Source of the DNA: Opitutaceae bacterium | Lineage (GTDB): Bacteria > Verrucomicrobiota > Verrucomicrobiia > Opitutales > Opitutaceae | Assembly: GCA_014376585.1 (NCBI GenBank) | Contig: JACMRG010000406.1 | Coordinates: forward strand, 1 to 40,763 | Length of the DNA stretch: 40,763 nt | Reading direction: 5' to 3' | Shown: positions 2-21,981 of the stretch, in pieces | Position numbering within the stretch: the first letter of the stretch is position 1 | Layout of the letters: each line of letters begins with the position of its first letter | Program-made: the position numbers and the translations under genes | Notes under the pieces: model-generated | The model's database searches: none | Told to the model about the DNA's origin: nothing | The model's input: only the letters and a program-made list of their open reading frames with translations

Positions 2-1321
2 CTTTCGCTGTCCACCGCCCTCGCCCTCACCGCGCCTCTCCGCGCCGCCGACGGCACCGCTTCGACCGCCGTCGCCCAAAAACTCGCCGCCGACTATCCG
101 TCCCTCTCCGCTCTTTACTCCGATCTCCACGCGCACCCCGAGCTCTCGCTCATGGAGGAAAAAACCGCCGCCAAGCTCGCCGTCGAACTTCGCGCCATCG
201 GCTTCGCGGTCACCGAGCAATTTGGCGGTCACGGCATCGTCGGCGTCCTCGAAAACGGCCCCGGCCCGACCCTCCTCGTGCGCACCGATCTCGACGGCCT
301 GCCCGTCCTCGAAGAGACCGGCCTCGCCTACGCCAGCAAGGACCGCGTCACCGATCTTACTGGCAAGGACGTGCCGCTCATGCAGGCCTGCGGCCACGAT
401 CTGCACATGACCATCTTCACCGGCACTGCCCGCCAGCTCGCCGCCCACCGCGACCGCTGGGCCGGCACCCTCGTCTTCATCGGCCAGCCCGCCGAGGAAC
501 GCGGCATCGGCGCCCGCGCCATGCTCAAGGAAGGCCTCTTCCAAAAATTCCCCAAGCCCGACTTCGCCATCGCCGTCCACGACAGCGCCACCCTGCCGGC
601 CGGCACCATCGGCATCCTTGAAGGCTTCAACTGGGCCAACGTCGACACCGCGGAAATCACCGTCCGCGGCGTCGGCGGCCACGGCGCCTACCCGCAGACG
701 ACCAAGGACCCCATCGTCCTCGCCGCCCGCATCGTCACCACGCTCCAGACCATCGTCAGCCGCGAGACGCGCCCCGTCGAACCCGCCGTCGTCACCGTCG
801 GCTCCATCCACGGCGGCACGAAATCCAACGTCATCTCCAACGAGGTGAAACTCCAGCTCACCCTACGCTCCTATTCAGACACCGTCCGCCGGCACACCAT
901 CGAAGCCGTGAAACGCATCTGCCGCGGCGAAGCCATTGCCGCCGGCATCCCCGATGACCTCATGCCCATCGTCGAAATCCTTGAGGGCGAATTCACCCCC
1001 GCTTCCTACAACGACCCCGCGCTCACCCGCCGCGTGCGCGGCGCCCTCACCGAATGGCTCGGCGCCGCCGCCGTGCAAACCATCGATCCCGAGATGGGCG
1101 GCGAAGACTTCGGCCAGTTCGGCCGCACGGCGGAAAAAATCCCGATCTGCATGTTCCGCGTCGGCGCCGTCGATCCGCAAAAATTCGCCGAGAGCCAGCG
1201 CACCGGGGCACCGCTGCCGTCGCTGCACTCGGGCAAGTTCGCCCCGCTCCCCGAGCCCGCCATCAAGACCGGCGTCACCGCCCTCACCGCCGCCGCCCTC
1301 GAGCTGTTGGCCAAAAAATAA
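2..1321 (+). CDS. Secreted M20-family amidohydrolase/peptidase, 5' end missing
   Basis: A metal-dependent hydrolase of the M20 family (aminoacylase/hippurate-hydrolase type) that would cleave N-acyl or peptide amide bonds. The reading frame is open from base 2, so the true start lies upstream; an internal ATG at 152 is not the start because the preceding codons encode family sequence (DLHAHPELS) behind what looks like the end of a signal peptide (ALTAPLRAADG). Visible family motifs are RTDLDGLPV, the metal-ligand motif ACGHDLH, the QPAEERG stretch with the general-base Glu pair, GGHGAYP in the dimerisation/lid domain, and MGGEDFGQF plus LHSGKFAP near the C terminus. All expected ligands seem present, so it is probably active and, given the leader, extracytoplasmic. 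The substrate cannot be read from sequence. The next gene lies 62 bp downstream on the same strand. Confidence 0.9.
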   Translation, partial: LSLSTALALTAPLRAADGTASTAVAQKLAADYPSLSALYSDLHAHPELSLMEEKTAAKLAVELRAIGFAVTEQFGGHGIVGVLENGPGPTLLVRTDLDGLPVLEETGLAYASKDRVTDLTGKDVPLMQACGHDLHMTIFTGTARQLAAHRDRWAGTLVFIGQPAEERGIGARAMLKEGLFQKFPKPDFAIAVHDSATLPAGTIGILEGFNWANVDTAEITVRGVGGHGAYPQTTKDPIVLAARIVTTLQTIVSRETRPVEPAVVTVGSIHGGTKSNVISNEVKLQLTLRSYSDTVRRHTIEAVKRICRGEAIAAGIPDDLMPIVEILEGEFTPASYNDPALTRRVRGALTEWLGAAAVQTIDPEMGGEDFGQFGRTAEKIPICMFRVGAVDPQKFAESQRTGAPLPSLHSGKFAPLPEPAIKTGVTALTAAALELLAKK

Positions 1322-3327: not shown

Positions 3328-3473
3328 CCGCAGGCCTCGGAGTGCGTTGCCCCCGGTCCGGACGATCGGCTCGTCCCACGCCCGCCCGGACTACCGCCCT
3401 TATGGCCACCGCCGAATTCAGCAGTAGGTCGCCCCCTCCAAAAAAAATTCTGTCCGGTTCCGCGCCGGGCGGG

Positions 3474-3488
3474 TGATAGTGGCTATCA
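3474..3488. promoter_or_regulatory. Possible operator palindrome upstream of the sigma-factor gene
   Basis: A perfect 6-bp inverted repeat, TGATAG-TGG-CTATCA, ends five bases before the ATG at 3494. Its position suggests control of transcription or of start-codon access, but no binding protein can be assigned. Confidence 0.35.
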
Positions 3489-3493
3489 TCCCC

Positions 3494-5152
3494 ATGACCG
3501 ACGATCTTACCCTGCTGCGTCGCTACGTCGAAGAACGCTCCGAAGCGTCTTTTACCGAACTCGTGGGGCGGCACGTGAGCCTCGTCTATCACGCCGCGCT
3601 CAGACAGACCAACGACAAGACTCTCGCCGAGGACGCGACCCAGACGGTCTTCACCGATCTTGCACAGAAAGCGGGCTCACTACTGGGACGCCCCGCCATT
3701 TCCGGCTGGCTCTACACGAGCGCTCGTTTTGCCGCGACCAAAGCGAAGCGCACCGGCCGCCGCCGCCAAAACCGCGAACAAGAGGCCTATAAAATGAATG
3801 AAGTGACCCACGCTTCCCCCACCACCCATGATTGGGAGCAACTGCGTCCCATCATCGACGAGTCCATGCACGCCCTCGATGAGCGTGACCGCGAAGCGAT
3901 CCTGCTCCGGTTTTTCGAGGGCAAGCCGTTCGCCGAGGTGGGCGCGAAACTTTCCATGAGCGAGGATACGGCCCGGGTGCGCGTGTCGCGGGCTTTGGAC
4001 AAACTGCATGGCCTGCTCAGGAAGCGCGGGATCTCTTCCACCTCGGCGGCTTTGGGCTTGGCGTTGGGCACCCAGGCCGCGGTGGCTGCGCCGGTCGGCT
4101 TGGCGGCGACGGTAGCAGGCACGGCTTTGGCCGGTGCAACGACCGCCGCAGGGCTGACCTTTCTGGGAGCGTTGAGCACCTCGAAGTTGTTCGTGGCGGG
4201 AGTCGGCCTCACCGCCTGCGTTGCGATTGGGACCGCGCTTTTTGAAGCCCGGGAATTGAAGAAAAACCAGACGGCGCTCGAAGTCGCGAACCAGGAAACC
4301 GTCGCGCTGCGGGGCCAACTGCGAGCGATGTCGGGACAGTTAGAGACCGCCAACCGGCGCATTCAGGTTCAAACCACCCCGGTGGTGGGAGTCACCACGA
4401 ATGCCGGGGAAGTTCCGAAAGCCTCGGAAACCGCCGCGGAACCGATCACGTCCGACATCGTCCAAGCCCGCTACAAGCGAGGCCAGGATTTGGCGCGCAA
4501 CGGTCAGACGGCGGAAGCGCTCGCGGAATATCTCTGGTGTCTGGACGAGGGCATGATTCGCGTGCGCAGCTTCTCCGGCGTGCGGGCAAGTTTCCTGCTC
4601 AGCGAGATCGAGAAGCTGGGACCAAGCGCCGTCCCCGCGCTGCAAGAGCGCCGGGATCGAGCACAAAAGCGGGTCTTTGCGAGCTCATCTGATTTTGACG
4701 CAGCTTCCGATTTCGCCGCGCTCAATCGCACGTTGAAAGAGGACGATTTCACCATCGCAATCTACGATCAATTGCCACCCACCGATCCCCGCCGGCGAAC
4801 GCTCGCCACCGGTGCCTATGACCAGTTGGTTTCTGTCCAACGGTATGCCGATGCGGTCCAAGCCCGGGGCTACGCGGTGATGCTCGCTACCTTCGAGTCC
4901 CACATCAAGGAGCGACCGCTTCCCGAGAGCGCGCCAAGATCCGAAGCCTTTCGTCAGGTGCAGCGCACCGTGGCCATCAACTCAGCGGCTAAAAATATCG
5001 AGGTGCTGGCCGGGGCCGGACAGCTCGCAGAAGCACGTAAATTCGCGGAGCGGCTGCTCCAGTTCGATGGATCGCCCGCCACCAAAGCGGTGATCCAGCA
5101 GCACGCGACGCGCGCGGGCCAGCCTGGCCTCCTTGGCGGGCTGAATCCATAG
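3494..5152 (+). CDS. ECF-type sigma factor fused to a membrane-anchored helical domain
   Basis: A 552-residue protein. Residues about 15-90 are sigma region 2 (FTELVGRHVSLVYHAAL, DATQTVFTDLA, GWLYTSARFAA) and about 125-178 are sigma region 4 (ERDREAILLRFFEGK, then a helix-turn-helix MSEDTARVRVSRALDKL), so it should direct RNA polymerase to promoters. After an Ala-rich linker (180-230) comes one transmembrane segment (about 231-250), a coiled coil (about 252-292) and a helical, TPR-like region (about 320-545) that would lie outside the cytoplasm. Usual ECF factors have about 200 residues; the extension may replace a separate anti-sigma factor by tethering or sensing. The ATG at 3494 is preferred because it starts the conserved MTDDLTLLRRYV. 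No anti-sigma gene is adjacent. Regulon unknown. Confidence 0.88.
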   Translation: MTDDLTLLRRYVEERSEASFTELVGRHVSLVYHAALRQTNDKTLAEDATQTVFTDLAQKAGSLLGRPAISGWLYTSARFAATKAKRTGRRRQNREQEAYKMNEVTHASPTTHDWEQLRPIIDESMHALDERDREAILLRFFEGKPFAEVGAKLSMSEDTARVRVSRALDKLHGLLRKRGISSTSAALGLALGTQAAVAAPVGLAATVAGTALAGATTAAGLTFLGALSTSKLFVAGVGLTACVAIGTALFEARELKKNQTALEVANQETVALRGQLRAMSGQLETANRRIQVQTTPVVGVTTNAGEVPKASETAAEPITSDIVQARYKRGQDLARNGQTAEALAEYLWCLDEGMIRVRSFSGVRASFLLSEIEKLGPSAVPALQERRDRAQKRVFASSSDFDAASDFAALNRTLKEDDFTIAIYDQLPPTDPRRRTLATGAYDQLVSVQRYADAVQARGYAVMLATFESHIKERPLPESAPRSEAFRQVQRTVAINSAAKNIEVLAGAGQLAEARKFAERLLQFDGSPATKAVIQQHATRAGQPGLLGGLNP

Positions 5153-5214
5153 AATGTCATGACGCGCGCTCCGCAGACCGTCCCCGTTGTCAAAAAAATT
5201 TTCGCTCAAACTCT

Positions 5215-5340
5215 TTGGGAGTGTCTTCAAACCTGTCATTGCGAGAAGTCGCGCTCTGCGCGGCGACGAAGCAATCCAGCTGGATCGCCACGGCGCGCTT
5301 CGCGCACCTCGCGATGACAATCGTTTGAAGACACTCCCAA
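5215..5340. repeat. MITE-like element with long terminal inverted repeats
   Basis: The ends are near-perfect inverted copies: the left begins TTGGGAGTGTCTTCAAAC and the right ends with its exact complement. Inside, the left half carries TGTCATTGCGAG...GCAATCCAG and the right half an inverted, diverged copy. It has no coding capacity and ends ten bases before the lipoprotein ATG, so it may supply or alter that gene's promoter. A solo half-copy of the core lies at 30891-30922. Confidence 0.75.
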
Positions 5341-5350
5341 CCTCACCCCC

Positions 5351-5614
5351 ATGAAACGATCTGCCACCCTCATCCTCATCACCTGCGCCAGCGTTCTCCT
5401 CGCTGGATGCACATCGATCCCACCCGGCCTGACGAAGGCCCAGTGGAATGCCCTGTCGCCGCAGCAGCGGACCCAATACGCGGCCGCCAACAACGATGAC
5501 CGCCGGGGCTTCACCTCGCACATCACCTCCCTGCGCAGCGACGCCGACTCCACGCTCCGCAGTCTTAATCCCACCCAGTTCACGTTGTCCCCCGACCCGT
5601 CGTCCACCCGTTAG
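5351..5614 (+). CDS. Small putative lipoprotein
   Basis: An 87-residue protein with a lipoprotein signal: a basic start (MKR), a hydrophobic stretch and a lipobox LLAGC with the modified Cys at residue 20. The mature part is short and hydrophilic, with a helical WNALSPQQRTQYAAANND stretch and no domain I recognise. It would be lipid-anchored to a membrane facing the periplasm. It starts ten bases after the MITE-like element and stands alone, with about 250 bp to the next gene. The function is unknown; the clear lipobox argues that it is a real gene. Confidence 0.7.
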   Translation: MKRSATLILITCASVLLAGCTSIPPGLTKAQWNALSPQQRTQYAAANNDDRRGFTSHITSLRSDADSTLRSLNPTQFTLSPDPSSTR

Positions 5615-5649
5615 TCCGCATCCATCACACGTTCATGAAAGAATTCTTT

Positions 5650-5742
5650 GTCACGGAGCGCATAGAGCCCCGCACCGAGGACGCGGAGCAAAACCCTGTC
5701 TGCTCTGTGCTCTCAGTGTCGGAGCTCCGTATCCTCTGTGAC
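5650..5742. repeat. Degenerate inverted repeat, GTCACGGAG / CTCTGTGAC
   Basis: Short inverted ends (GTCACGGAG at 5650-5658, CTCTGTGAC at 5734-5742) flank a purine-rich left part and a pyrimidine-rich right part. It resembles the repeat at 16269-16427. The remainder of the gap 5615-5866 shows no gene. Confidence 0.45.
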
Positions 5743-5866
5743 GCATGCCTCGGCCGTTCGAGTGTGATGTATGCGGGCTAGCGCCATGACCCTGCACCGC
5801 TCCCGCACCGGAGGATCGGTCTCTCAGCTCTCCACTCTCAGCTCTCAATTGCGTCGGCCCCACTGA

Positions 5867-8116
5867 ATGCCTGCCCCACGCCTCGCTTTCCTGCTGCTTG
5901 CCGGCCTTTGCCTCGACTCCGCCCGCGGCGCGACGGACCGGTTCGCCAAGTTCGTCACCAATCTTTACCGGCCCCGCCAAGCGGAACAGGTAGTCCTATC
6001 GCCCGACGGTGAGCACATCGCCTTCACCCGTCACACGAGCGGCGAACCTTCGACGGCCTTCTCGCCCGACAACGACCGGATCACCGACTATCGCAACGAG
6101 CACGGTGAACTCTCGATTTACATCATGGCCGTCGGCCGCACCGAAAAGAAATTTAAGATCGCAGTGGAGGACGATCGCCCCGTGGCGTTCAGTAAGGAAA
6201 AACGGCCCGCGCGGTTGCGCTTTCTCGCGTGGTCTTCTCCCACGCGCCTCGTCTTTGCCCCCACCAGTTATGCCACTCCTGCGGGGACCATCGCTTCGAT
6301 CTTCGCCGTCAACCTGGACGGCAGCGAACCTAAGACCTTGGCCGTCGCGGCCAACTTTTCACTGCTGGATCCCAATGCCAACAAGCCTATTGATCGCACG
6401 ACCCAGATCGTCGGATTTCTCCGCGGCCATCGCGAGAAACTGCTGGTTCAGGCCTTGGGCCGGAGGCGCTTTCCACCGGTTGCGGCCGTTCCCACCACGC
6501 TCTTCTCCATCGACGTCGTGACCGGGGAACAAAAAGCCCTCACGGAAGAACCCGAATTCGCGCTGTATTTTCCGGACCGGACCGGCGACCTGCGCCTGCT
6601 CTACACCCACCCCGACCTAGAGCGCACCCGGTCTTTTCGTCTAAAAACTCCCGGTTTCTGGAATCGCTGGGTCGACTTGGACGAAGCTCGGGGCGGTCCC
6701 GCAGCCAAAGCGTTCACCGTCACCCCCGAAAACTATTTCGGCGAGCGCGCCTTCCCGCTCGGCTTCGACGCCAACCCCGATCTGCTCTACTACGCCTCTA
6801 ACGTCGGTCGCGACACCTACGGCATCTATGCGCTGGATCTACGCACTCGGCAGCGCACCACCTTCGCCATCGAGGACCCGCACGTTGATCTGGCTTTCAT
6901 AGAACCGGGCGCGGGCAGCCCGCTTCATTTTGACGAACACACCGGCGCACTCGTCGGAGTCCGCGCCGCCGGGGCCAAACCCGTCACGCGGTGGATCGAC
7001 CCGGAGTTGGCCGCGCTGCAACTCACCCTGGATCGCAAGTTCCCCCACCGTAACGTGGAGATCCTGCAATGGGACCAGGCGCGGCGGCGCTTTCCCCTCC
7101 GCGTCGGCGGCGGCCCCGCCCCGGGCCGTTACTACGTGTTTCAACAAATTGAAAACGTTCTCGTCGAGCTGCTGCGCACGGCCCCTTGGCTGCACCCCGA
7201 TGACCTGCATCCCACCACGGCTTTCGAATTTGATACCCCGAGCGGCGTCCACCTTACCGGCTATCTGACGTTTCCGCGCCGGCCGCGCATTAACCCGCCC
7301 CCGTTGCTCATCGACTTTTCCGATGGGGTCCTGGGCTCTGCCGAGTCTTCCTTTCAAAGTCAGGCACAGGTCTTGGCCGAGCTCGGCTTCATCGTCGCTC
7401 GCGTGAATCACCGCGGTCGGTCGGGCTTCGGCCTCGCGCATCGGAATGCCTTCCGCGACGGGGGCGCCCGCGTGCCCGTGGACGATGCCCTCGCCGCGAT
7501 CAAGTGGATCGCCGATCATCACCCTATCGACCGCAAACGCATCGCCACCTTCGGCCGCGGTCTCGGCGGCTACCTCGCACTGCGCGCACTTCAACTAGAA
7601 CCCGACGTATTCCGCTGTGCCGTGCCCACCGACGCACCGCTCTCGCCAGAACTCTGGCTGCAGCCACCCCCGCGGGCGGATCTCGGCCGCGGCTCGGACG
7701 TGAGTGCTGCGCTGTCGTCGTCTTCTAGCGACTCCTCGCCCACCGCCTCGCAGGACGGTCCGCTTGGTCCGCTGCGTCGGCCTCCGCCCATAAATCTCGC
7801 GCAGGAAACCCAACGCGCCTTTTTCTTGGGCGGCTCGGCGAAGCTCACCCCGGTCGCAAGCCACGCCGAGACCCTGACCGAGCCTGTCATGCTCATCCTC
7901 AACGTCGCGGACACCGACATCATCGCGATCCAGAACGCCTCATTGCGCTCCAAGCTTACTGCTCTAGGTCACCCTCCGGAATTCCTCCACGTCGCCGCGG
8001 GCACGGCGGATCTGCCCGACGTCCGCGTGAAGACGTTTCGGCAGATCGGTGAGTTCTTTAATCTCAATCTCTACAACTTCGGCGTGAAGGTCGGGACTCC
8101 GAAACCGGTTAAATGA
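5867..8116 (+). CDS. Secreted prolyl-oligopeptidase-like (S9) protein, catalytic Ser lost (cassette copy 1, gene A)
   Basis: A 749-residue protein with a signal peptide (LAFLLLAGLCLDSARG). Residues about 25-440 resemble the beta-propeller of S9 peptidases (LSPDGEHIAFTRH); about 450-740 form an alpha/beta-hydrolase domain (VARVNHRGRSGFG, DDALAAIKWI, DRKRIATFGRGLGGYLALRAL). In active S9 enzymes the last motif is GxSxGG; here it is GRGLGG, with Gly565 at the Ser position. The usual HGGPG loop reads DFSDG, and the C-terminal GxGH motif carrying the catalytic His is absent. It should therefore not be a serine peptidase; a binding or regulatory role is an inference. A Ser-rich insert lies at about 613-630. 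Its stop overlaps the next gene's start (ATGA), so the two are translationally coupled. A paralogue lies at 9862-12024. Confidence 0.88.
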   Translation: MPAPRLAFLLLAGLCLDSARGATDRFAKFVTNLYRPRQAEQVVLSPDGEHIAFTRHTSGEPSTAFSPDNDRITDYRNEHGELSIYIMAVGRTEKKFKIAVEDDRPVAFSKEKRPARLRFLAWSSPTRLVFAPTSYATPAGTIASIFAVNLDGSEPKTLAVAANFSLLDPNANKPIDRTTQIVGFLRGHREKLLVQALGRRRFPPVAAVPTTLFSIDVVTGEQKALTEEPEFALYFPDRTGDLRLLYTHPDLERTRSFRLKTPGFWNRWVDLDEARGGPAAKAFTVTPENYFGERAFPLGFDANPDLLYYASNVGRDTYGIYALDLRTRQRTTFAIEDPHVDLAFIEPGAGSPLHFDEHTGALVGVRAAGAKPVTRWIDPELAALQLTLDRKFPHRNVEILQWDQARRRFPLRVGGGPAPGRYYVFQQIENVLVELLRTAPWLHPDDLHPTTAFEFDTPSGVHLTGYLTFPRRPRINPPPLLIDFSDGVLGSAESSFQSQAQVLAELGFIVARVNHRGRSGFGLAHRNAFRDGGARVPVDDALAAIKWIADHHPIDRKRIATFGRGLGGYLALRALQLEPDVFRCAVPTDAPLSPELWLQPPPRADLGRGSDVSAALSSSSSDSSPTASQDGPLGPLRRPPPINLAQETQRAFFLGGSAKLTPVASHAETLTEPVMLILNVADTDIIAIQNASLRSKLTALGHPPEFLHVAAGTADLPDVRVKTFRQIGEFFNLNLYNFGVKVGTPKPVK

Positions 8117-9837
8117 ACGCGATCCTTCCACGTCTGCCCGTTCTCCTCCTCGCACTCGGCGCCGGGGCTTGGGCGGCTGAATCTGTCCCCCGCCCCCCGG
8201 ACCGGATCATCGAACTCCCGCCGATGACCATCACGGATACCATCGATGCCGTGCCGTGGCTCTACGTGTCGGTGGGCGACACGGAATTCCTCTCCCGCTG
8301 CTCGCGGGAGATCACGCGGGAATTCATCACCACGCAGCTCGAGATTCATCACACCCTGCGCGATGTCATCCCACCGGAGTTTCTCGCCACGACGGCCATA
8401 CCCCGCGTGTTCCTGCTCTTGCCCATTGAGCATTCCAACATCCGCGACGACGCCGTGCTCCGCGCCATGGTGGCCGACGCCAGTCGGCCGACCCCCCGCG
8501 GGGTCATTCCCTTCGATGACAAACATTCTAAGCCGAGCCTGTTTGAACGTGTGCTGTTCCTGCCCAACCAACGACTGGAAGACCGCGACACGATGGCGGC
8601 GTTTACGTTTTTGAAGGAATCGAATTTTGCCAGCGACCGCATGATCGTGGCGCCAGACTACGTCCGCTCCCTACTCGCGCGTCGCACACCCATGCTCCCC
8701 CAGTGGCTGATCGAGGGACTCACATTGCTCTATCAACAGACCATCATCCGCGCCGGTCCGGCCGCAGTAGTCCCCGGCAATTGGATTTCGCCCGAGGATA
8801 CCGTCGGTCTCCGTAACAGTCCCGACAACCGCCGCGTGCTTCTGTCCTGCGAAGAACTTTTCGCCGTCGACGCCCTCATCGGTCCCGACCACCAGCACCC
8901 GACGCGCGAAATCGTATGGCGCCTGCAAGCGGCCCTCTTTGTTCGCTGGGCCCTCGATCACGCCAACACCCGGGGCAGCGACGTGCTATGGAAGCTGGCC
9001 GATCGGGTCAGTCGCGAGCCCATGACGGAAAAAATCCTTATAGAATACTTCGGCCTCGGCTACTCCGACCTTCTCGAACGCTTGAGCGACTATTTGCCCA
9101 ATGCGGTAAAGTATTCCGCCGGCCTTTCTCTAAAGCCGACGCCCGATCTACTCCTCTTCGAAATTACGCCCGCCACCAAGTTCCAGATCGCCCGACTGCG
9201 CGGCGAGTGGGAGCGGCTGGAGATTCCGTTCGTGCGCGCGCACCACCCCAAGTTTCTACCCCACTACATCGACCGGGCCCGCCTCACCTTCCGCCGAGCC
9301 ATCGCTCTTGGAGGACGTGACCCGCAATTCCTCGCTTCCTTCGGTCTCTGCGAACTCGACGCCGGAGACATCCCCGCCGCCCTCCCCTCACTCGAAGCCG
9401 CGATGGCGGCAAAAGTGTTTCGCCCCCGAGTTTACTTTGAGGTCGCCCGTCTGCGCATGGACGCGCTCGCCCGCCACACGCCGAAAGACCAGCAATTTTC
9501 CCCCGGCCAATTACAACCGATTCTTGAACCTCTGCATACGGCCATCGGGCAATCACCGCCACTACCCGAGGTCTATATTCTCGCGATGGACGCGTGGCTG
9601 CGTTGTCAGGAACCCACGCCGCCCGGCGAACTAACCATGTTGGTCGAGGCGGCACCGCTGTTTCGACGTCACCCCGGTTTCGCCCTGCGGCTCGCCCTGC
9701 TTCAGATCAAAAACGGCCAGCGCACCGCAGCCGCCGCCACGCTTACCACCGGCCTGCAGTTCCTCGGCGAGCCAAGTGCGCGCAGCCGCTACCAACAAGC
9801 GCTGGCTGGCCTAGCAGCTCCCACGGCGACTCCGTAG
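8113..9837 (+). CDS. Secreted protein of unknown function with helical repeats (cassette copy 1, gene B)
   Basis: A 574-residue protein with a signal peptide (LPVLLLALGAGAWAAES). The N-terminal half (about 45-210) has PWLYVSVGDTEFLSRCS and then RTPMLPQWLIEGLTLLY. The WLxEG motif is typical of gluzincin (peptidase MA-like) proteins, but where HExxH would be expected upstream I read DYVRSLL (about 182-188), so a metallopeptidase activity is not supported. The C-terminal part (about 360-570) is helical and TPR-like (LASFGLCELDAGDIPAALPSLEAAM). It overlaps gene A by 4 bp. The constant pairing of A and B suggests that the two secreted proteins work together. The function is unknown; a paralogue lies at 12021-13709. 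Confidence 0.8.
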   Translation: MNAILPRLPVLLLALGAGAWAAESVPRPPDRIIELPPMTITDTIDAVPWLYVSVGDTEFLSRCSREITREFITTQLEIHHTLRDVIPPEFLATTAIPRVFLLLPIEHSNIRDDAVLRAMVADASRPTPRGVIPFDDKHSKPSLFERVLFLPNQRLEDRDTMAAFTFLKESNFASDRMIVAPDYVRSLLARRTPMLPQWLIEGLTLLYQQTIIRAGPAAVVPGNWISPEDTVGLRNSPDNRRVLLSCEELFAVDALIGPDHQHPTREIVWRLQAALFVRWALDHANTRGSDVLWKLADRVSREPMTEKILIEYFGLGYSDLLERLSDYLPNAVKYSAGLSLKPTPDLLLFEITPATKFQIARLRGEWERLEIPFVRAHHPKFLPHYIDRARLTFRRAIALGGRDPQFLASFGLCELDAGDIPAALPSLEAAMAAKVFRPRVYFEVARLRMDALARHTPKDQQFSPGQLQPILEPLHTAIGQSPPLPEVYILAMDAWLRCQEPTPPGELTMLVEAAPLFRRHPGFALRLALLQIKNGQRTAAAATLTTGLQFLGEPSARSRYQQALAGLAAPTATP

Positions 9838-9861
9838 CCGACCGACGCAGCCCACGCTAGC

Positions 9862-12024
9862 ATGTCTCGCCGCCATCTTATTTTCCTCCTCTTACTGGCT
9901 GGCGCGTGCCTGCCCTTCGCCCGCGGCGCGCCCACCCCGTTCGAAAAGTTCGTCACCAACCTCTATCGTCCTTGGCAGGCGGAGCAGGTCGCCCTCTCGC
10001 CCGACGGCGAGCACCTGGCCTACACCCGCCACGAGGCCGGCAATCTCGTCATTGAGATAATGACGGTGTCCCGCCCCGCGCCAAAATTCAAGATCATCGC
10101 CGACGACGACCAGCCCGTGCTGTTCGCGAAAGAGCTACGGCCCGCCTACCTGCGCTTCCTCGCGTGGGCATCACCTACCCGTCTCGTGTTCGCACCCGTT
10201 CCTAAAGCGGACGCGCTCACTTCCATCACGGCCGTGAACCGCGACGGCACTGCCCCGATGACCCTCGCCGCGCCGGATGATTTTGCGGTCACCGTCACCT
10301 TTGCTCCGCCCGGCGTTGGGGGCCGCGAGCGTTTAACCCAGCGCTCTATCCACATCGTCGGCTTTGCTCCCGGTCATCGAGAAACTCTTCTGATTCACGC
10401 GCTGGGCACCGCCCCGATGCCCTACGCGACCGACGTGCCCACCACCCTCGTCGCCATCGACGTCACCACCGGCAAAAAGACCGAGCTCGCGGAGGAGACC
10501 AATTACGGGCGCTACCTCCCTCACCCCGGCGGCAACCTCCACCTGCTCTACTCCCAGCCACGCTACGCGACTACCCGCATCTTCGAGCTGAAGAAACCCG
10601 GCTTCTGGGACCGCTGGATCACCCTCGACGAAGCCTGGGGCGGCCCCCTCACCAAGGCCTTCAAAGTGACGCCCGAAAACTACCACGGTGAACGCGCGTT
10701 CCCGCTCGGCTTCGACGTCGACCCCGACCTGCTCTACTACGCCTCCAACGTCGGTCGCGACACCTACGGCATCTATGCGCTCGACGTCCGGAAAAAACAA
10801 CGCACCCCGTTCGCCGTGGAAGAGCCCCACGTCGATCTCGCCCTACCCGAGCCCGGCGACCCCAGCCCCCTCGTCTTTGATCCGATCACCAGTCAGCTCG
10901 TCGGCGTGCGCGGTGTCGGCGTCGCGCCCTTTACGCGCTGGATCGATCCCGAATTCGCGACCCTCCAGCAGGACCTCGAGAAAAAATTCCCGCAGCGCAC
11001 CGTGGAGCTTCTGCAATGGGACGACGCCCGCCGGCGCTTGCTGCTACGCGTCACCGGCGGCATCGAGCCGGGCCGCTACCACGTCTTCCAACGGCCCGAA
11101 AACGTCATGGTCGAAGTGCTCCGCTCCGCCCCGTGGCTGCGCAACGCCGACCTGCACCGTGGCACCACCTTCGCGTTCGACACGCCCGGCGGCGCCCACC
11201 TCACCGGCTACCTCACTTTTCCCAGCAAACCCCGGATCAATCCGCCGCCTCTGCTCATCGACTTCTCGGACGGCGTCATGGGCAGTGCTCAGCCCGGCTT
11301 TCATCGTCAGGCGCAGGTCCTCGCCGAACTCGGCTTCATCGTCGCCCGCGTGAATCACCGCGGCATGTCCGGCTTCGGCCTCGCCCATCGCAACGCTTTC
11401 CGCGACGGCGGCGATCGCGTGCCCGTGGACGACGCCCTCGCCGCCATCAATTGGATCGCCGGTCACCACGCCATCGACCGCAAGCGCATGGCCACCTTCG
11501 GCCGCGGTCTCGGCGGCTACCTCGCGCTGCGCGCCCTCCAACTCGAACCCGACGTATTCCGCTGCGCCGTCGCCATCGACGCGCCGCTCGCGCCGGCACT
11601 CTGGTTAATGCCGCCACTCGAGGACCTCGGGCCAGGGAGCCAAGCCGATGCAGCGGACTACAAGATCCTACTTTCCTCCCGACCGCCGCCGCCAATCGAT
11701 TTTGCACAGGAAGTCCGCCGCGCTTTTCTCCTGGGCGGCTCCGCGAAGCTCACCTCCGTGTTGAGCCACGTCGAGACCCTGACCAAGCCCGTCATGCTCA
11801 TCGTCAACCGTCCTGAGGACGACCCCATCGCCCTCCAGAACGCCTTCCTCCGCGCGAAGCTCTCCCGTCAGGGCCTCGACCCCGAGCTCCTCCAGACCGC
11901 CAACCCGTTCGCCGCCGATCTCCCCCTCGAACGCGCCAAAACCTTCCGCCGCATCGGCGAGTTTTTTAACCTCAACCTCTACGACTACGGCGTGAAGGTC
12001 GGCCCCACCAAGGAAATCAAATGA
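9862..12024 (+). CDS. Secreted prolyl-oligopeptidase-like (S9) protein, catalytic Ser lost (cassette copy 2, gene A)
   Basis: A 720-residue paralogue of the protein at 5867-8116, starting 24 bp after cassette copy 1. It has the same signal peptide type (FLLLLAGACLPFARG), the same propeller start (KFVTNLYRPWQAEQVALSPD) and the same hydrolase domain. The nucleophile motif is again GRGLGG, with Gly549 at the catalytic Ser position, and no His is found in the C-terminal segment where the catalytic His belongs (ANPFAADLPLERAKTF). The shared substitution implies that activity was lost before duplication while the fold stayed under selection. It lacks the Ser-rich insert of copy 1 and an acidic insert near residue 55. 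Its TGA overlaps the start of the next gene (ATGA). Role unknown; likely periplasmic or extracellular. Confidence 0.88.
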   Translation: MSRRHLIFLLLLAGACLPFARGAPTPFEKFVTNLYRPWQAEQVALSPDGEHLAYTRHEAGNLVIEIMTVSRPAPKFKIIADDDQPVLFAKELRPAYLRFLAWASPTRLVFAPVPKADALTSITAVNRDGTAPMTLAAPDDFAVTVTFAPPGVGGRERLTQRSIHIVGFAPGHRETLLIHALGTAPMPYATDVPTTLVAIDVTTGKKTELAEETNYGRYLPHPGGNLHLLYSQPRYATTRIFELKKPGFWDRWITLDEAWGGPLTKAFKVTPENYHGERAFPLGFDVDPDLLYYASNVGRDTYGIYALDVRKKQRTPFAVEEPHVDLALPEPGDPSPLVFDPITSQLVGVRGVGVAPFTRWIDPEFATLQQDLEKKFPQRTVELLQWDDARRRLLLRVTGGIEPGRYHVFQRPENVMVEVLRSAPWLRNADLHRGTTFAFDTPGGAHLTGYLTFPSKPRINPPPLLIDFSDGVMGSAQPGFHRQAQVLAELGFIVARVNHRGMSGFGLAHRNAFRDGGDRVPVDDALAAINWIAGHHAIDRKRMATFGRGLGGYLALRALQLEPDVFRCAVAIDAPLAPALWLMPPLEDLGPGSQADAADYKILLSSRPPPPIDFAQEVRRAFLLGGSAKLTSVLSHVETLTKPVMLIVNRPEDDPIALQNAFLRAKLSRQGLDPELLQTANPFAADLPLERAKTFRRIGEFFNLNLYDYGVKVGPTKEIK

Positions 12025-13709
12025 TCTCCACGGCCCAATTCCTTCTCCTCTGCATCACCACCGCTCTCGCGTTGCCCCTCGGTCTCCGCGCCGCCACCCC
12101 GACGACACCAAGCCCTGCCGCCAGCGGTCCAGTCGTAGCGTTGCCCCCGATGATCGTCGCCGAGCCGTTCAAAGCTCAGCCGTGGCTTTACGTCGCCGCC
12201 GGCGACACTGAGTTTCTCTCCCGCTGTTCCAAATCCATCACCAGGGATTTCGTCACCACCCAGCTCGAAATTCACCGCGCGCTCCGCGGCTTCGTGCCGC
12301 CGGAATTTCTCGCGACCTCCGTGCCGCTCATCGTCCTCGTCCTTCCCATGTCGTCCATGCCAGGCCCAGACGACGCCGTGCTCCGCAATCTCCGGCAAGG
12401 TCGGTTGGCCGAGTCGGCCAACGTCCACTTCCTGCCCAACCAGCGGCTCGAAGACCATGACATGACCGCAGTCTTCAACTTCCTCGACGAATCCAACTTC
12501 AGCGGCGAACGCCTGATTGTCGCCGAGGATTTTTTCGAAGCCCTTCTTCTTCGCCGCACGCCGATGCTCCCCGCTTGGCTGATCGAGGGCCTCGTGCGCA
12601 TCTACGACCACGCCTACAAGCATGCTGTGCCCATGGTGCTGCCGCCGTTGATCTGGCTCTCGTTCGACGAGAGCATGGGCCTGCAACGCGACCCCGAAGG
12701 CCGCCGCCCGCTCCTACCCGGCAACGAACTGTTCGCCCCCGACGCCGTGATCGGACCCGACCACACCCACGCCGTGCGCCGCCAGGTCTGGTCGGCCCAG
12801 TGCGCGCTCTTCGTGCGCTGGGCGCTTGATCCCGCCCAACCCGGCGCCCGCACCGCCCTCTGGCGGCTTGCCGAACGCGTCAGCCGCGAGCCCATGACCG
12901 AGACCATCTTCGCCGAATCTTTTGGCTTCGGCTACTCCGACCTCCGCGACCGACTCAGCGATTACCTGCCGACCGCCGTCAAAGCCTCCGTGAAGCTCGC
13001 GCCCGCAGAACTGCCCCCGCTGCCGCGCTTCGAGATCAAGACCGCCACGGTCGCGCAGGTCGCCCGTCTGCGCGGCGAATGGGAGCGGCTGGAAATCCCC
13101 TTCGTGCGTCAGCACCATCCGGAATTCCTGCCGCGCTACATCGCGCAGGCCCGCCTCACTCTGCGCCGCGCCACCTCCCGCGGCGAACGCGACCCGCAAC
13201 TCCTCGCCACCGTCGCCCTCTGCGAACTCGACGCCGGTGACCCCGCCGCCGCGCTCCCGCTGCTGGAGGCAGCCGGCGCCGCCAACGTCGTCCGGCCGCG
13301 CGTCTACTTCGAAACCGCCCGTCTGCGCTGGGAGGCACTCACCCGCAACGCCCCTCCTGAAAAGATCTTCACCGTCGCCGAACTCCAACCCGTCCTCGCC
13401 CCCCTCCAAACCGCCCGCACGCAGTTCCCGCCATTACCCGAAGTCTTTCTCCTCACCTTCGACGCCTGGCTCCGCTGCGAACAACGCATCCCTGCCGCCG
13501 AACTGGAGAAACTCGTCGCCGCCGTGCCGCTCTTTCGCCGCTACGCAGGCTTCGGCCTGCGCGTCGCCTTGCTCCAGTTGAAAAACGGCCGCCGCGCCGA
13601 AGCCGCCGCCGTGCTCTCCAGCGGCCTCGAATTCCTAGCCGATCCCACCACCCGCGCCCGCCGCCGGAAGCTGCTCGCCGCTCTCGCTGCCCCGCCCCTG
13701 GTGCCTTGA
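12021..13709 (+). CDS. Secreted protein of unknown function with helical repeats (cassette copy 2, gene B)
   Basis: A 562-residue paralogue of 8113-9837 with a signal peptide (FLLLCITTALALPLGLRA). Shared landmarks are PWLYVAAGDTEFLSRCS, HFLPNQRLEDHDM, RTPMLPAWLIEGL (WLIEG at about 186-190), RLRGEWERLEIPFVRQHHPE and a helical C-terminal half (VALCELDAGDPAAALPLLEAAG). At the place of an HExxH zinc motif it reads EDFFEALL, so it too looks catalytically empty. It lacks about 20 residues present in copy 1 around position 125. It overlaps its partner gene by 4 bp as in copy 1. It is the last gene of the four-gene run and is followed by 380 bp of repeat-rich DNA. Confidence 0.8.
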   Translation: MISTAQFLLLCITTALALPLGLRAATPTTPSPAASGPVVALPPMIVAEPFKAQPWLYVAAGDTEFLSRCSKSITRDFVTTQLEIHRALRGFVPPEFLATSVPLIVLVLPMSSMPGPDDAVLRNLRQGRLAESANVHFLPNQRLEDHDMTAVFNFLDESNFSGERLIVAEDFFEALLLRRTPMLPAWLIEGLVRIYDHAYKHAVPMVLPPLIWLSFDESMGLQRDPEGRRPLLPGNELFAPDAVIGPDHTHAVRRQVWSAQCALFVRWALDPAQPGARTALWRLAERVSREPMTETIFAESFGFGYSDLRDRLSDYLPTAVKASVKLAPAELPPLPRFEIKTATVAQVARLRGEWERLEIPFVRQHHPEFLPRYIAQARLTLRRATSRGERDPQLLATVALCELDAGDPAAALPLLEAAGAANVVRPRVYFETARLRWEALTRNAPPEKIFTVAELQPVLAPLQTARTQFPPLPEVFLLTFDAWLRCEQRIPAAELEKLVAAVPLFRRYAGFGLRVALLQLKNGRRAEAAAVLSSGLEFLADPTTRARRRKLLAALAAPPLVP

Positions 13710-13744
13710 TCCGGTCACCCGCGAATCCCACCGGCACCAGATTG

Positions 13745-13795
13745 GATTTGGACTTTTAGCGGTGGCGTCGCGACCTCCGGGCGCGACGGGTTCGG
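13745..13795. repeat. REP-like repeat, copy a (GATTTGGACTTTT...GACCTCCGGGCG)
   Basis: This 51-bp stretch recurs at 13963-14012 with one indel and about two mismatches. Both lie in the noncoding interval 13710-14093, which otherwise shows only short repeat fragments. Confidence 0.75.
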
Positions 13796-13962
13796 CCGGT
13801 CTTTTCGTGCAGCCCCGGGTATCACGCAAATGGCCGCGAATAGACCGCCATGAAAATCAAGCCGCGGCCGCGCCCGCTACACATCGAATCAACTCTTCCG
13901 CGCCGTTCTGGAATTCCCGGGCGGCATCCTCCTTCGCCCCACCTTATACCGGCGGCTGGTAT

Positions 13963-14054
13963 GATTTGGACTTTTCGGGTGGCGTCGCCACCTCCGGGCG
14001 CGACGGGTTCGGAGGTTTTACCGGTCAACCGCGTCCGAAGGTCGCGGCTCCACC
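13963..14054. repeat. REP-like repeat, copy b, with an inverted right arm
   Basis: A direct copy of 13745-13795 followed by a right arm (ending GTCGCGGCTCCACC at 14054) that pairs with the left arm starting GGTGGCGTCGCCACC at 13978. It could form a hairpin between the convergent cassette gene and the GNAT gene and serve as a bidirectional terminator. Confidence 0.7.
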
Positions 14055-14093
14055 TCAAACGGCCCACAGTCTAAAATTTCGGAGCCGTTGGCG

Positions 14094-14624
14094 TTAATTC
14101 GCCGCCAGCACCTTGTAGAAAATCGCGTTCTTCTCCGGCGTGCCGTGCGGATCAAGCGCGTAGTTGGGAATGCCGCCGGCGTAAACGTAGGCCAGTCGCT
14201 CGTAGAACACGCGGGCGCCCGCGTGGCTGTCGCTTGTGTCGAGAAACAGCAGCGTGAGGCCCCGCGTGACGGCGATCCGCTCGATCTCCGCCATCAATCG
14301 CGCCGCGATCCTCCGCCGGCGATAGGCGGGATGGACCATCACTTTCTGCACCTCGCCGCGGTGCCGCCCGTTGGCCTTCGCCTCGCACATCACCTGCGCG
14401 CTCCCAATAATTTTTCCGCCCACCCTGTCGCGCGCCACCAGCAGCACCCGGAACCCACCCGACAAATCACCCGCGATTTTCCCCCAATACGCATCGGCCT
14501 CCGCCCGCGGCAGCGGCGCGAGAAACCCGATCGACGCCCCGCCTTCGACGCACGCCGTCAATAAATCCGCCAGCTCCGCCCCATCCCGTGCCGACGGCAC
14601 CGCGCCCAACGCTTCGATCACCAC
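14094..14624 (-). CDS. GNAT-family N-acetyltransferase
   Basis: A 176-residue acetyl-CoA-dependent N-acetyltransferase. It shows GASIGFLAPL near the N terminus, beta strands FRVLLVARD and GEVQKVMVHPAYRRRRIAARL (the acetyl-CoA loop, normally Q/RxxGxG/A, here RRRRIAA), and LLFLDTSDSHAGARVFYERLAY. The fold appears complete and the protein cytoplasmic; the acceptor substrate cannot be told. The GTG at 14624 (VVIEALGAV) is chosen because the family sequence begins there; upstream in-frame ATGs at 14657 and 14690 lie in a dispersed repeat (14641-14675), so they would add repeat-encoded residues. Last gene of a minus-strand group that includes the phosphoesterase and toxin-antitoxin genes. Confidence 0.82.
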   Translation of the reverse strand: MVIEALGAVPSARDGAELADLLTACVEGGASIGFLAPLPRAEADAYWGKIAGDLSGGFRVLLVARDRVGGKIIGSAQVMCEAKANGRHRGEVQKVMVHPAYRRRRIAARLMAEIERIAVTRGLTLLFLDTSDSHAGARVFYERLAYVYAGGIPNYALDPHGTPEKNAIFYKVLAAN

Positions 14625-16561: not shown

Positions 16562-17530
16562 TCACCCTTTCGCCGGCGGTTTGAGTTGGATCAAAATATT
16601 CGCCGCCGTGATCAGCCCGCCGCCGACCAGCAGCGTCCACGTCGCCGTCTCGTTCGGATAATTGATCCCGGCCCACACCGAGAAAAGCGCCGGCAAGAAC
16701 AGCGCCATCACCGAGCCGAAGACCGGCTCCACGCAGTAGATCAACCCGGCTTCCGTCGCCGTGATTTTCGGCTGCCACGCGTTCATGATGCCATAAGCGC
16801 CCAGGGTGCACACGACCGTGAGCACGCCCGTGCAGACCAGCCACGCCGGGGAGGTCCACGGCAAGATCAGCGTCGCCACATCCGGCGCCGTCGCGCCCGC
16901 CAGCACCGCAAAGCCGAGCGCCTGCGCCGCAAACATCACCAGCGTCAGCTCAAACGCGCGGTTCGCCGCAAATTCCTTTTTCTCCAGCCACAGGATCTGG
17001 CCCATGAAAAACACCGAGGAGAGCAACGTCTCCCATTCCCCGCGCCCGAGCCGGAGTTCCCGCCAGTCGAAATTCCCAAGGATCGCCACCCCTCCGAGCA
17101 CCAGCGCGCAACTGGTCCACACCACCGCACCCGGATTGCGCCGCGCGCGCACCGCGAGATAGATCGGGATCATGATCGCGTAGAACTGCGTCAGAAACGC
17201 CGAGGTGCTCGCCGCGGTGAACTGCAACGCGTCGTTTTGAAACAACATCCCCGCCGCCGCGAAAAGGCCGATTACCACACCCTGCTTAATCTCACCGCGC
17301 GTGAGCCCGCGCCACGCCCGCGGCTTCAACGCGACCAGCACCAGCATCCCCAGCAGGAAACGCGGCGCCACCGTATAAATCGCCGAGAACCAGGAACCCG
17401 CCTCGGGCACCAGCTGCCCATGCAGGAAAAGGATGGTCTTGATGAGCGGAAAACTCAGCCCCCAGAAAACCGTCGCGAGCAGGAGCATGAGCAGCGCCCG
17501 CGAGCGTTGGGGAGAGGGAGCGTGCGACAT
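16562..17530 (-). CDS. EamA/DMT-family transporter
   Basis: A 322-residue inner-membrane protein with about ten hydrophobic helices in two EamA repeats, starting with LLMLLLATVFWGLSFPLIK (the FWGxxFP motif of the family). Further landmarks are FLTQFYAIMIPIYLA at the end of the first repeat and ATEAGLIYCVEPVFGSVMA in the second. Members export or import small metabolites such as amino acids; the substrate is not predictable. The ATG at 17530 (MSHAPSPQ) is chosen: the open frame to 17668 adds a hydrophilic non-family leader. The divergent gap to 17834 presumably holds the promoters; I see no clear boxes there. Confidence 0.88.
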   Translation of the reverse strand: MSHAPSPQRSRALLMLLLATVFWGLSFPLIKTILFLHGQLVPEAGSWFSAIYTVAPRFLLGMLVLVALKPRAWRGLTRGEIKQGVVIGLFAAAGMLFQNDALQFTAASTSAFLTQFYAIMIPIYLAVRARRNPGAVVWTSCALVLGGVAILGNFDWRELRLGRGEWETLLSSVFFMGQILWLEKKEFAANRAFELTLVMFAAQALGFAVLAGATAPDVATLILPWTSPAWLVCTGVLTVVCTLGAYGIMNAWQPKITATEAGLIYCVEPVFGSVMALFLPALFSVWAGINYPNETATWTLLVGGGLITAANILIQLKPPAKG

Positions 17531-17833
17531 GGGCGGGGTGAATGGCAGAGCGAAAAACCGCGGATCGTGCCGACCGCCTCCGCCACCGCCAAGCGAATTG
17601 GCGGCAAACACCCGCGAGCGCCCCCACCGCAGAACACCGATATATCCGGAACCTCTATCCATCGCCACAGACCCAGATCCGCCTTCCCGTCACCCCGTTT
17701 CGGATCGCCGCAACTTCTCCCTCGCCCCTGTCACCTAAGAAATCCTCGTCGTCCTCGTCATACGTGGGCCGAGGTCGCTTCATCGCTTTACTCCCTCATC
17801 TCCAACGTCAGCGTCACCCCACCCCCGGTTGCC

Positions 17834-19132
17834 ATGAAACTCCCGTCGCCGCTTCTCGTCGGTTCGCTCGCGGTCAATGCCGCCGTTCTCGCACTCTATT
17901 TTTCGAAGTCGCCCGCCGCTTCCCCGGCCGACCCCGCCACCGCTTCTTCCCCCACCGTAAGCAACAACTCCGTCACGGGCAGCACGACCGGCACCGGTAA
18001 ATCCGACGGCGGTGCCACTGCGGCGGCCCACGACCCGCTCGTCCAAGTCTGGTCGCAGCTCCAATCCGGCGACCTCGCCACCCTCGTCGCCCGTCTCCGC
18101 GCCGCCGGATTTTCCGCCTCGATGATCCGCTCCATCGTTTCCGCGCAGGTCAGTGAGCAGTTTTCCGCCCGGCGCCGGGAGTTGTTCAGCGCACTTGACG
18201 ACCGGCCATTTTGGAAGAGCCAGCAGAACCCTTTCAGCGACCCGAAACTCCAGACGGGGCTGCGCACTCTCGGCAAAGAGCAGAACGATCTGCTCAAATC
18301 TCTCCTCGGCGCCGATTACCTCCAGAACGTGGAAGAAGTGCGTAGCTCCCAACGCCGGGTGTATGGCAATGTTCCCGTCGAGAAACTCGCGCAGCTTCAG
18401 GTCATCAACAGTGACTATGGCGAACTCAGTCAGGAGATCTGCTCCAAGGCCAACGGCATGATACTGTCCGAGGACCGCGAAAAACTGGACTTCCTGGCAA
18501 AGGAAAAACTTGCCGACATCGCCAGGGCGCTCACGCCGCAAGAATTCGAGGAACACCAATTCCGCACCAGCTCAACCGCCAACCAACTGCGCTCGAAGCT
18601 CGCCCACTTCGAGGTCAACGAGACCGAATTCCGCGCGCTCTATAAACTGCCAGCGGCCTTCGAAGCCCAATATAATGTCCGAGACAGTCAGCCGTCACCC
18701 GAGAAAATGGCCGCCCGCCCCGGGGCTGAAAAACAGCTCCAAGCCGCGATCCTCGCCAGCCTCCCTCCCGACCGCGTCGCCGAATACAAACTGGCCACCG
18801 ACCCCAACTATCAACAAGTCAACCGGCTCTTCGCCCGCTTGGAACTCCCGCCCGCGACCTCCCGGCAAGTGGTGGCTCTCCAGCAAGACATCCAAGCCCG
18901 CGCCAACACCCTTCGCTCCGACCGCACCCTGGCGCCCGAGGCGCGCAACGCCCAGCTCACCGCGCTTCGGCAAGAAGCCACCACGAAGCTCAGCACCTCC
19001 CTCACCCCGCGCGGTCTCGAAGCCTATAAACAAAACGGCGGATTCTGGATTCAATCCCTCCAGCCCCGCCCGACATCCACCCTGCCCTCCTCCGGCACAG
19101 CCGCATCCGTCACCTCGCGCCCCGGCGGTTAA
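17834..19132 (+). CDS. Membrane-anchored helical protein, tandem family member 1 of 4
   Basis: A 432-residue protein of a family I do not recognise. An uncleaved-looking anchor (MKLPSPLLVGSLAVNAAVLAL) is followed by an Ala/Ser/Thr-rich linker to about residue 70, then a long helical region: LVARLRAAGFSASMIRSIVS, PFWK, QRRVYGNVP, LSEDREKLDFLAKEKLADIA, LTPQEFEEHQFRTSSTANQ, ETEFRALYK. It ends with EAYKQNGGFWIQSL and a Pro/Ser/Gly tail. The LTPxE-type motifs and helicity recall periplasmic LTXXQ (Spy/CpxP) proteins, but this is only a resemblance. The long open frame upstream (from 16586) is antisense to the transporter gene and is rejected. No Shine-Dalgarno sequence. Confidence 0.8.
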   Translation: MKLPSPLLVGSLAVNAAVLALYFSKSPAASPADPATASSPTVSNNSVTGSTTGTGKSDGGATAAAHDPLVQVWSQLQSGDLATLVARLRAAGFSASMIRSIVSAQVSEQFSARRRELFSALDDRPFWKSQQNPFSDPKLQTGLRTLGKEQNDLLKSLLGADYLQNVEEVRSSQRRVYGNVPVEKLAQLQVINSDYGELSQEICSKANGMILSEDREKLDFLAKEKLADIARALTPQEFEEHQFRTSSTANQLRSKLAHFEVNETEFRALYKLPAAFEAQYNVRDSQPSPEKMAARPGAEKQLQAAILASLPPDRVAEYKLATDPNYQQVNRLFARLELPPATSRQVVALQQDIQARANTLRSDRTLAPEARNAQLTALRQEATTKLSTSLTPRGLEAYKQNGGFWIQSLQPRPTSTLPSSGTAASVTSRPGG

Positions 19133-19198
19133 GTCGAAGAACCGTTTATTTCCGCCCTCATCATTTAGTGCCCGCCCCGCCAACTCAGTTCTTCTCCC

Positions 19199-20503: not shown

Positions 20504-20566
20504 CCCGGCAGCGCGCGGCCCGTCCCTGCACTCGCTCCCGCGTCAAACCTCCCCCCATTCCCGTCC

Positions 20567-21943: not shown

Positions 21944-21981
21944 GTCGCCCTCATCTCTCCACCGAAACACTCTCAACCCAT

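Follow-up and report, generated by a model that had tools for sequence, protein, structure and literature searches.

Tandem copies of an overlapping gene pair encoding probable pseudo-peptidases in an Opitutaceae genome

Overlaps of four nucleotides between the stop of one gene and the start of the next are frequent in bacterial operons, and for this reason an overlap alone is weak evidence that two gene products work as a pair. What, then, should be made of such an overlap that has been kept in both copies of a duplicated gene pair? The question is raised by positions 5867-13709 of a 40,763-nucleotide stretch of an Opitutaceae bacterium (assembly GCA_014376585.1, contig JACMRG010000406.1; hereafter the window, meaning the whole stretch analysed), where the genes A1, B1, A2, and B2 follow one another on the forward strand (Table 1). 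An earlier note, made from the sequence alone, had described A as S9-like and B as an unrecognised helical protein, and had suggested that the two must be made together. Here, A and B are probably a coupled pair of unrelated secreted pseudo-peptidases that act by binding, most plausibly as a hetero-complex, and that occur in two tandem copies.

Layout and duplication of the cassette

The order A1-B1-A2-B2 proposed in the earlier note was recovered as four open reading frames (ORFs), and direct reading of the DNA gives ATGA at both A-B junctions, as it had stated. B1 and A2 are separated by 24 nt. A1 and A2 are 63% identical over 750 columns, B1 and B2 are 57% identical over 524 columns, and both pairs are crossed by direct DNA repeats with a spacing of ~3.9 kb. 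A1 and A2 are sisters in the A tree (support 1.0), B1 and B2 are sisters in the B tree (0.997), and in both trees the window copies group next with L112/L113, two relatives that have the pair in single copy. Since the copies are sisters in both trees and join the same relatives' pair, the duplication of the pair as a unit, with its overlap retained, goes beyond chance.

The ratio of non-synonymous to synonymous substitution rates (dN/dS) between copies, a check that the earlier note had named, indicates purifying selection (NG86 values of 0.25 for A1/A2 and 0.28 for B1/B2). The dS between the window copies is about 1.0-1.25 (NG86), subject to the usual caution about saturation, and comparisons with relatives and among them give a dN/dS of 0.16-0.30. 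A sigma-70 promoter scan of window positions 5100-14100 found none.

Three other genomes carry tandem A-B units as well: G106 (two units), G006 (three), and G064 (two). In the A tree as in the B tree, the two copies of G106 are each other's sisters, and those of G006 form a clade (0.987, 0.999) whose inner order is weakly supported. Both trees place one of the G064 copies with the G020 pair, which makes this duplication older. Tandem pairs have been duplicated as units in the window genome and in these three others.

Table 1. Features of the tandem cassette in the window.
Feature	Position	Strand	Length	Description
A1	5867-8116	+	749 aa	S9-fold pseudo-peptidase; Pfam Peptidase_S9 9.1e-19; putative signal peptide (by eye)
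A1 nucleophile position	Gly565, nt 7559-7561	+		motif GRGLGG
A1-B1 stop/start overlap	8113-8116	+		reads ATGA in DNA
B1	8113-9837	+	574 aa	degenerate HExxH (gluzincin-like) domain + TPR-like helices
B1 domains	residues ~45-335; ~356-568			gluzincin-like; TPR-like helices
B1 HExxH position	P181-D-Y-V-R185, nt 8653-8667	+		Glu201 of W-L-x-E-G retained
A2	9862-12024	+	720 aa	S9-fold pseudo-peptidase; Pfam Peptidase_S9 3.8e-17
A2 nucleophile position	Gly549, nt 11506-11508	+
A2-B2 stop/start overlap	12021-12024	+		reads ATGA in DNA
B2	12021-13709	+	562 aa	B1 paralogue
B2 HExxH position	E169-D-F-F-E173, nt 12525-12539	+		Glu189 of W-L-x-E-G retained

Predicted folds and catalytic positions

The description of A as S9-like stands for the fold but not for the active site, where the nucleophile Ser is absent. 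The AlphaFold2 (AF2) model of A2, with a predicted local distance difference test score (pLDDT) of 84 from a 20-row alignment, has the beta-propeller and alpha/beta-hydrolase of the S9 (prolyl-oligopeptidase/acylaminoacyl-peptidase) fold, and its best Foldseek match over the whole length is the S9 carboxypeptidase 8wt1 (expectation value, E, 8.9e-28; template modelling score, TM, 0.61). The DPP8 elbow GWSYGG aligns opposite GRGLGG of A, and the Ser of GxSxGG is Gly in both A1 and A2. The columns of the catalytic Asp and His, where the alignment is weaker, hold Asp and Ala in A1 and Glu and Ala in A2. Ser, Asp, and His occupy the columns used in L008 and L009, two ordinary S9 proteins of the source genome that served as controls. 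Because its nucleophile elbow carries Gly, A should not form an acyl-enzyme.

The wider set was drawn from a survey of 150 genomes of the window's family, in which A2 has matches in 124, many of them to ordinary S9 proteins, and B2 in 85. The 82 stretches fetched, which include the window and L011, hold all A survey matches of at least 120 bits. A hidden Markov model (HMM) of A matched 68 frames in them, and 66 were kept after removal of two with weak scores (38 and 46 bits). The nucleophile column is covered by 63, the other three being truncated frames, and holds Gly in 53, Ser in 4, Asp in 3, and Asn, Trp, and Lys in one each. The four Ser-bearing frames retain Asp and His; they are lone, low-scoring, and belong to the outgroup part of the tree. 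Every A that lies beside a B and covers the site carries Gly there (29/29; 26 in A-B order and 3 in B-A order). Since most lone A's of the family also lack Ser, the nucleophile has been lost more widely than A has been paired with B. Among the paired A's are short ones of 571-646 aa in which much of the propeller is missing, as it is in their relatives (alignment A4). L246 (G106:C13) holds a tandem in which one S9 protein keeps Ser, Asp, and His and its paralogue has Gly in place of Ser.

B, far from being unrecognisable, is a degenerate relative of HExxH peptidases joined to TPR-like helices. In Pfam, B1 and B2 have no match above the cut-off and none to Peptidase_MA. The AF2 model of B1 (pLDDT 85, 43-row alignment) combines a mixed domain at the N-terminus with helical repeats at the C-terminus, and is matched by Foldseek to TPR proteins. 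A profile of the type found in B-B tandems (alignment A2) finds 28 genomes among 286 of the class, including some from other families. Twelve of these relatives (L231-L238, L240-L243) read HExxH...WLxEG and are collinear with B, and Pfam Peptidase_MA_2 matches L231 (E 1.8e-5) and L232 (1.1e-4) below Pfam's cut-off. Each of 14 regions around such relatives contains a frame that is matched by an HMM built from all B's (E 1.6e-12 to 3.1e-50), and 13 of these have HExxH. The A HMM has no match in these 14 regions, some of which have little flank on one side.

The 12 intact relatives, which were chosen for HExxH, were aligned with the 67 B frames of the fetched stretches, which are part only of the B matches of the family survey. 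HExxH occurs in none of the 67, the Trp of WLxEG is retained in all, and the third-ligand Glu is retained in 35 (12/31 paired), including B1 and B2. In the B-B tandem group (L011, L075-L078), one copy reads REYVH and the other mostly KEYFR (one LQYFR). The REYVH-type B's look like intermediates in the loss of HExxH, on a path from peptidase to binder. In a profile comparison with Peptidase_MA proteins, the B-B tandem group reaches E 0.0011, with a probability above that of 30 column shuffles. By way of full-length relatives that bear HExxH, the B domain appears to be homologous to the gluzincin / Peptidase_MA domain.

Linkage across genomes and competing explanations

Within the fetched stretches, B follows A directly in 28 cases and precedes it directly in 3. 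An NTGA overlap joins 24 of the 28 A-B pairs (ATGA 20, GTGA 3, TTGA 1), and some linked pairs that retain the overlap are only about 30% identical to the window proteins. A clade with B-A order (L081, L082, L269) stays linked as well. It is proposed that translation coupled at the four-nucleotide overlap would supply the A and B chains together. The pseudo-S9 A and the pseudo-gluzincin/TPR B would then be delivered to the envelope or secreted, as suggested by signal peptides recognised by eye, and would assemble as a hetero-complex. This predicted complex may bind peptide or protein ligands or partner proteins, or may regulate active peptidases, with no cutting, and the tandem copies would diversify binding.

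Genes that stand alone bear on how far the pairing reaches. A B-profile scan over 84,980 species genomes used one conserved peptide pattern, which biases it to B's that hold the pattern, and yielded 61 loci, whose record titles all name Opitutus, Opitutaceae, Opitutae, or another member of Verrucomicrobiota. The named loci and the loci with G handles overlap, and their counts are not additive. A accompanies B at 21 of the 61 loci, B stands without A at 39, and one has a fragment only. Less than 2.1 kb precedes B at 8 of the 39 lone-B loci, and at 19 of the 39 there is an unrelated gene, frequently directly upstream of B, for a product with a C-terminal YRAPFxVP or similar ending. In the source genome itself, A is missing beside two further B's (C381), and another B is truncated at a contig end, with its upstream side beyond judging. 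By the distance rule, 35 of the 66 A genes are lone, a count in which a fragment, the intact S9 outgroup, and an A whose B lies at a distance of 323 nt are included; reading their neighbours by eye revealed no common partner. At L086 and L087, S9 proteins with Gly in place of Ser stand as A-A tandems and lack a B. In a 288-genome sample of the phylum, matches of the B profile fall in 16 genomes belonging to the family of the window; the 11 genomes matched outside it have only weak partial matches (best E 5.0e-6). The earlier note had held that B homologues occurring mostly without A would count against its proposal, and this is what the B family shows. Because most B loci have no adjacent A, A and B are not obligate partners throughout the family; that A and B are made together may hold for the paired clades but is not family-wide.

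These lone-B and lone-A counts weigh against a binding hetero-complex, as do several other observations. Catalytic residues are not uniformly lost from the 29 paired A's, Asp being retained in 5 and His in 2 (both in none), and the pair may yet carry out some other chemistry. The correlation of A and B distances (r 0.869 over 32 pairs; 0/2000 permutations as high), which itself favours linkage, is uncorrected for species phylogeny. The Foldseek match of B1 to the M1 gluzincin leukotriene A4 hydrolase (LTA4H) is weak (E 1.1e-3, TM ~0.2). Since a direct profile comparison of the paired-B domain with Peptidase_MA is not significant (E 0.19), the relationship of B to gluzincins rests on the intermediates.

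If A and B were instead co-regulated envelope proteins that act separately and without catalysis, the overlap would reflect operon economy and no complex would form. The frequency of lone B's and lone A's fits this explanation, as does the existence of B-B and A-A tandems, but unit duplication in four loci, congruent A and B trees, overlaps retained at about 30% identity, and the persistent linkage of the B-A clade speak for a joint role, leaving separate action a real though lesser possibility. The usual reading of an S9 match, that A is still an active hydrolase with B as its helper, has in its favour a family score above Pfam's cut-off and the Asp in the acid column of A1. It is highly unlikely, given the Gly nucleophile in every covered paired A and the Ala in the His column of A1 and A2; DPP10, which belongs to S9 and has undergone the same replacement of Ser by Gly, is described as inactive (PMC4350108). 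That the genes are decaying remnants might be supposed from the catalytic residues missing from both proteins, yet the frames are open over 562-749 aa, the loss is common to many genomes, and the dN/dS values given above are those of purifying selection, so that decay is scarcely credible.

A further suggestion places B at the outer membrane, its TonB-box-like N-terminus (VxLPPFxV) allowing A-B to capture a ligand for TonB-dependent uptake or for STN/FecR-type signalling. The motif [VIL]x[LM]xx[FYLM]x[VI], typically VALPPFLV, was searched in the first 120 residues and occurs in 91/125 B frames (80/110 without duplicates) and in 3/60 A's; shuffled controls gave 7-14/125 for B's and 2-5/60 for A's. 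Among 30 TonB receptors read out of 90 plug matches in the source genome, 20 have a related, non-identical pattern before the plug, a count with no shuffle control. Moreover, of 22 lone B's that were scanned, 10 have an STN domain with E no higher than 0.01, some of these, such as L163 and L084, falling below Pfam's cut-off. Nevertheless, the motif was chosen by eye, STN is seen on lone B's and not on the window's B's, and TonB receptors are not clearly enriched beside A-B, with 4 plugs against 5.5 expected at 26 loci and 10 against 6.5 at an overlapping named set of 21, where expectations follow the plug density of the source genome. This role for B is accordingly considered doubtful. Slightly less so, though still rather unlikely, is a double-dead protease system, in which a secreted hetero-complex of pseudo-serine and pseudo-zinc peptidase would capture peptides or proteins and leave them uncut, the TonB-box-like N-terminus of the B family (joined by an STN domain in some lone relatives) would provide a link to TonB energy or FecR-type signalling, and specificity would be diversified by duplication of the unit. 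TonB-receptor neighbourhood was dropped as genomic evidence, being not clearly enriched near A-B loci; plugs number 6 against 3.6 expected near lone A, and 0 against 4.2 and 7 against 9.5 near lone B. The lone B relatives L163 (336-3302) and L084 (3794-5791; alignment A5) have an N-terminal STN-like domain, placed as at the N-termini of TonB receptors, and no plug or barrel matches.

Surroundings, known systems, and significance

The 14 most widespread neighbour clusters were taken from 34 A-B loci. Besides A, B, and shadow frames, they include a TonB-receptor cluster and an ATP-binding cassette (ABC) ATPase cluster, at 5 loci each. Two frames of the former were scanned, of which L080 resembles siderophore receptors and L116 is without a match. 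The latter is mixed, with OppD/OppF-like peptide-transporter ATPases in L119, L123, and L124 and other ABC proteins in two. OppD/OppF-like genes lie near A-B on the opposite strand at L119 (10591-12555) and L123 (12295-14372), the former starting 10 nt after the end of B. The OppD/OppF neighbours and the TonB motif are leads only. In the window, a gene for an extracytoplasmic function (ECF) sigma factor with a long C-terminal extension and weak TPR matches lies upstream of the cassette (3473-5152), and this sigma factor is absent from the 14 recurring clusters of other A-B loci. Between it and A1 are a 126-bp element resembling a miniature inverted-repeat transposable element, with perfect 18-nt inverted ends (5215-5340) and two near-full copies elsewhere in the genome (94-95%), and an 87-codon frame for a putative small lipoprotein with the lipobox LAGC, recognised by eye (5351-5614). 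Four consecutive long frames on the + strand at 16586-23259 have no Pfam match at 1e-4.

Among known proteins, A is closest in kind to the inactive S9B dipeptidyl peptidases DPP10 and DPP6. They share the S9 fold, and DPP10 has Gly in place of Ser (GKGYGG, compared with GRGLGG in A) and acts as a non-catalytic modulator of another protein (PMC4350108). These are, as described there, human membrane proteins that modulate Kv4 channels, and DPP10 retains His and Asp, whereas A is bacterial, has lost His in A1 and A2, and is coupled to a second, unrelated pseudo-peptidase. A review (PMC11266112) describes inactive metallopeptidase homologues that serve in scaffolding or regulation, and two-gene prokaryotic systems related to the processing peptidase, in which the alpha subunit has no zinc site. 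Like A-B, these bacterial M16B pairs and the mitochondrial processing peptidase are alpha/beta systems, with a two-gene operon and an alpha subunit that lacks zinc-binding residues. Their subunits are related and one binds zinc (PMC11266112), whereas the folds of A and B are unrelated and neither protein is catalytically complete, both lacking key residues. The Peptidase_MA_2 (PF13485) / HExxH...WLxEG + TPR proteins of related Verrucomicrobiota are collinear with B in the N-terminal domain, WLxEG, and the TPR-like part, but have the HExxH that B has lost. The best PDB sequence match of the B profile is LbcA (PA4667), the TPR partner of the protease CtpA, which covers the TPR part only (E 2e-8) and has no match to the peptidase-like domain of B.

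A search of open-access full-text literature gave no paper on such a pair among the matches listed. The pseudo-peptidase precedents encountered either pair with an active relative or act alone, and two unrelated peptidase folds, both devoid of catalytic residues and encoded by overlapping, co-duplicating genes, would be a new arrangement. Pfam-based annotation would label A a peptidase and leave B nameless, which would inflate peptidase counts in such genomes. The pair makes the possible re-use of protease folds as envelope binding complexes open to test.

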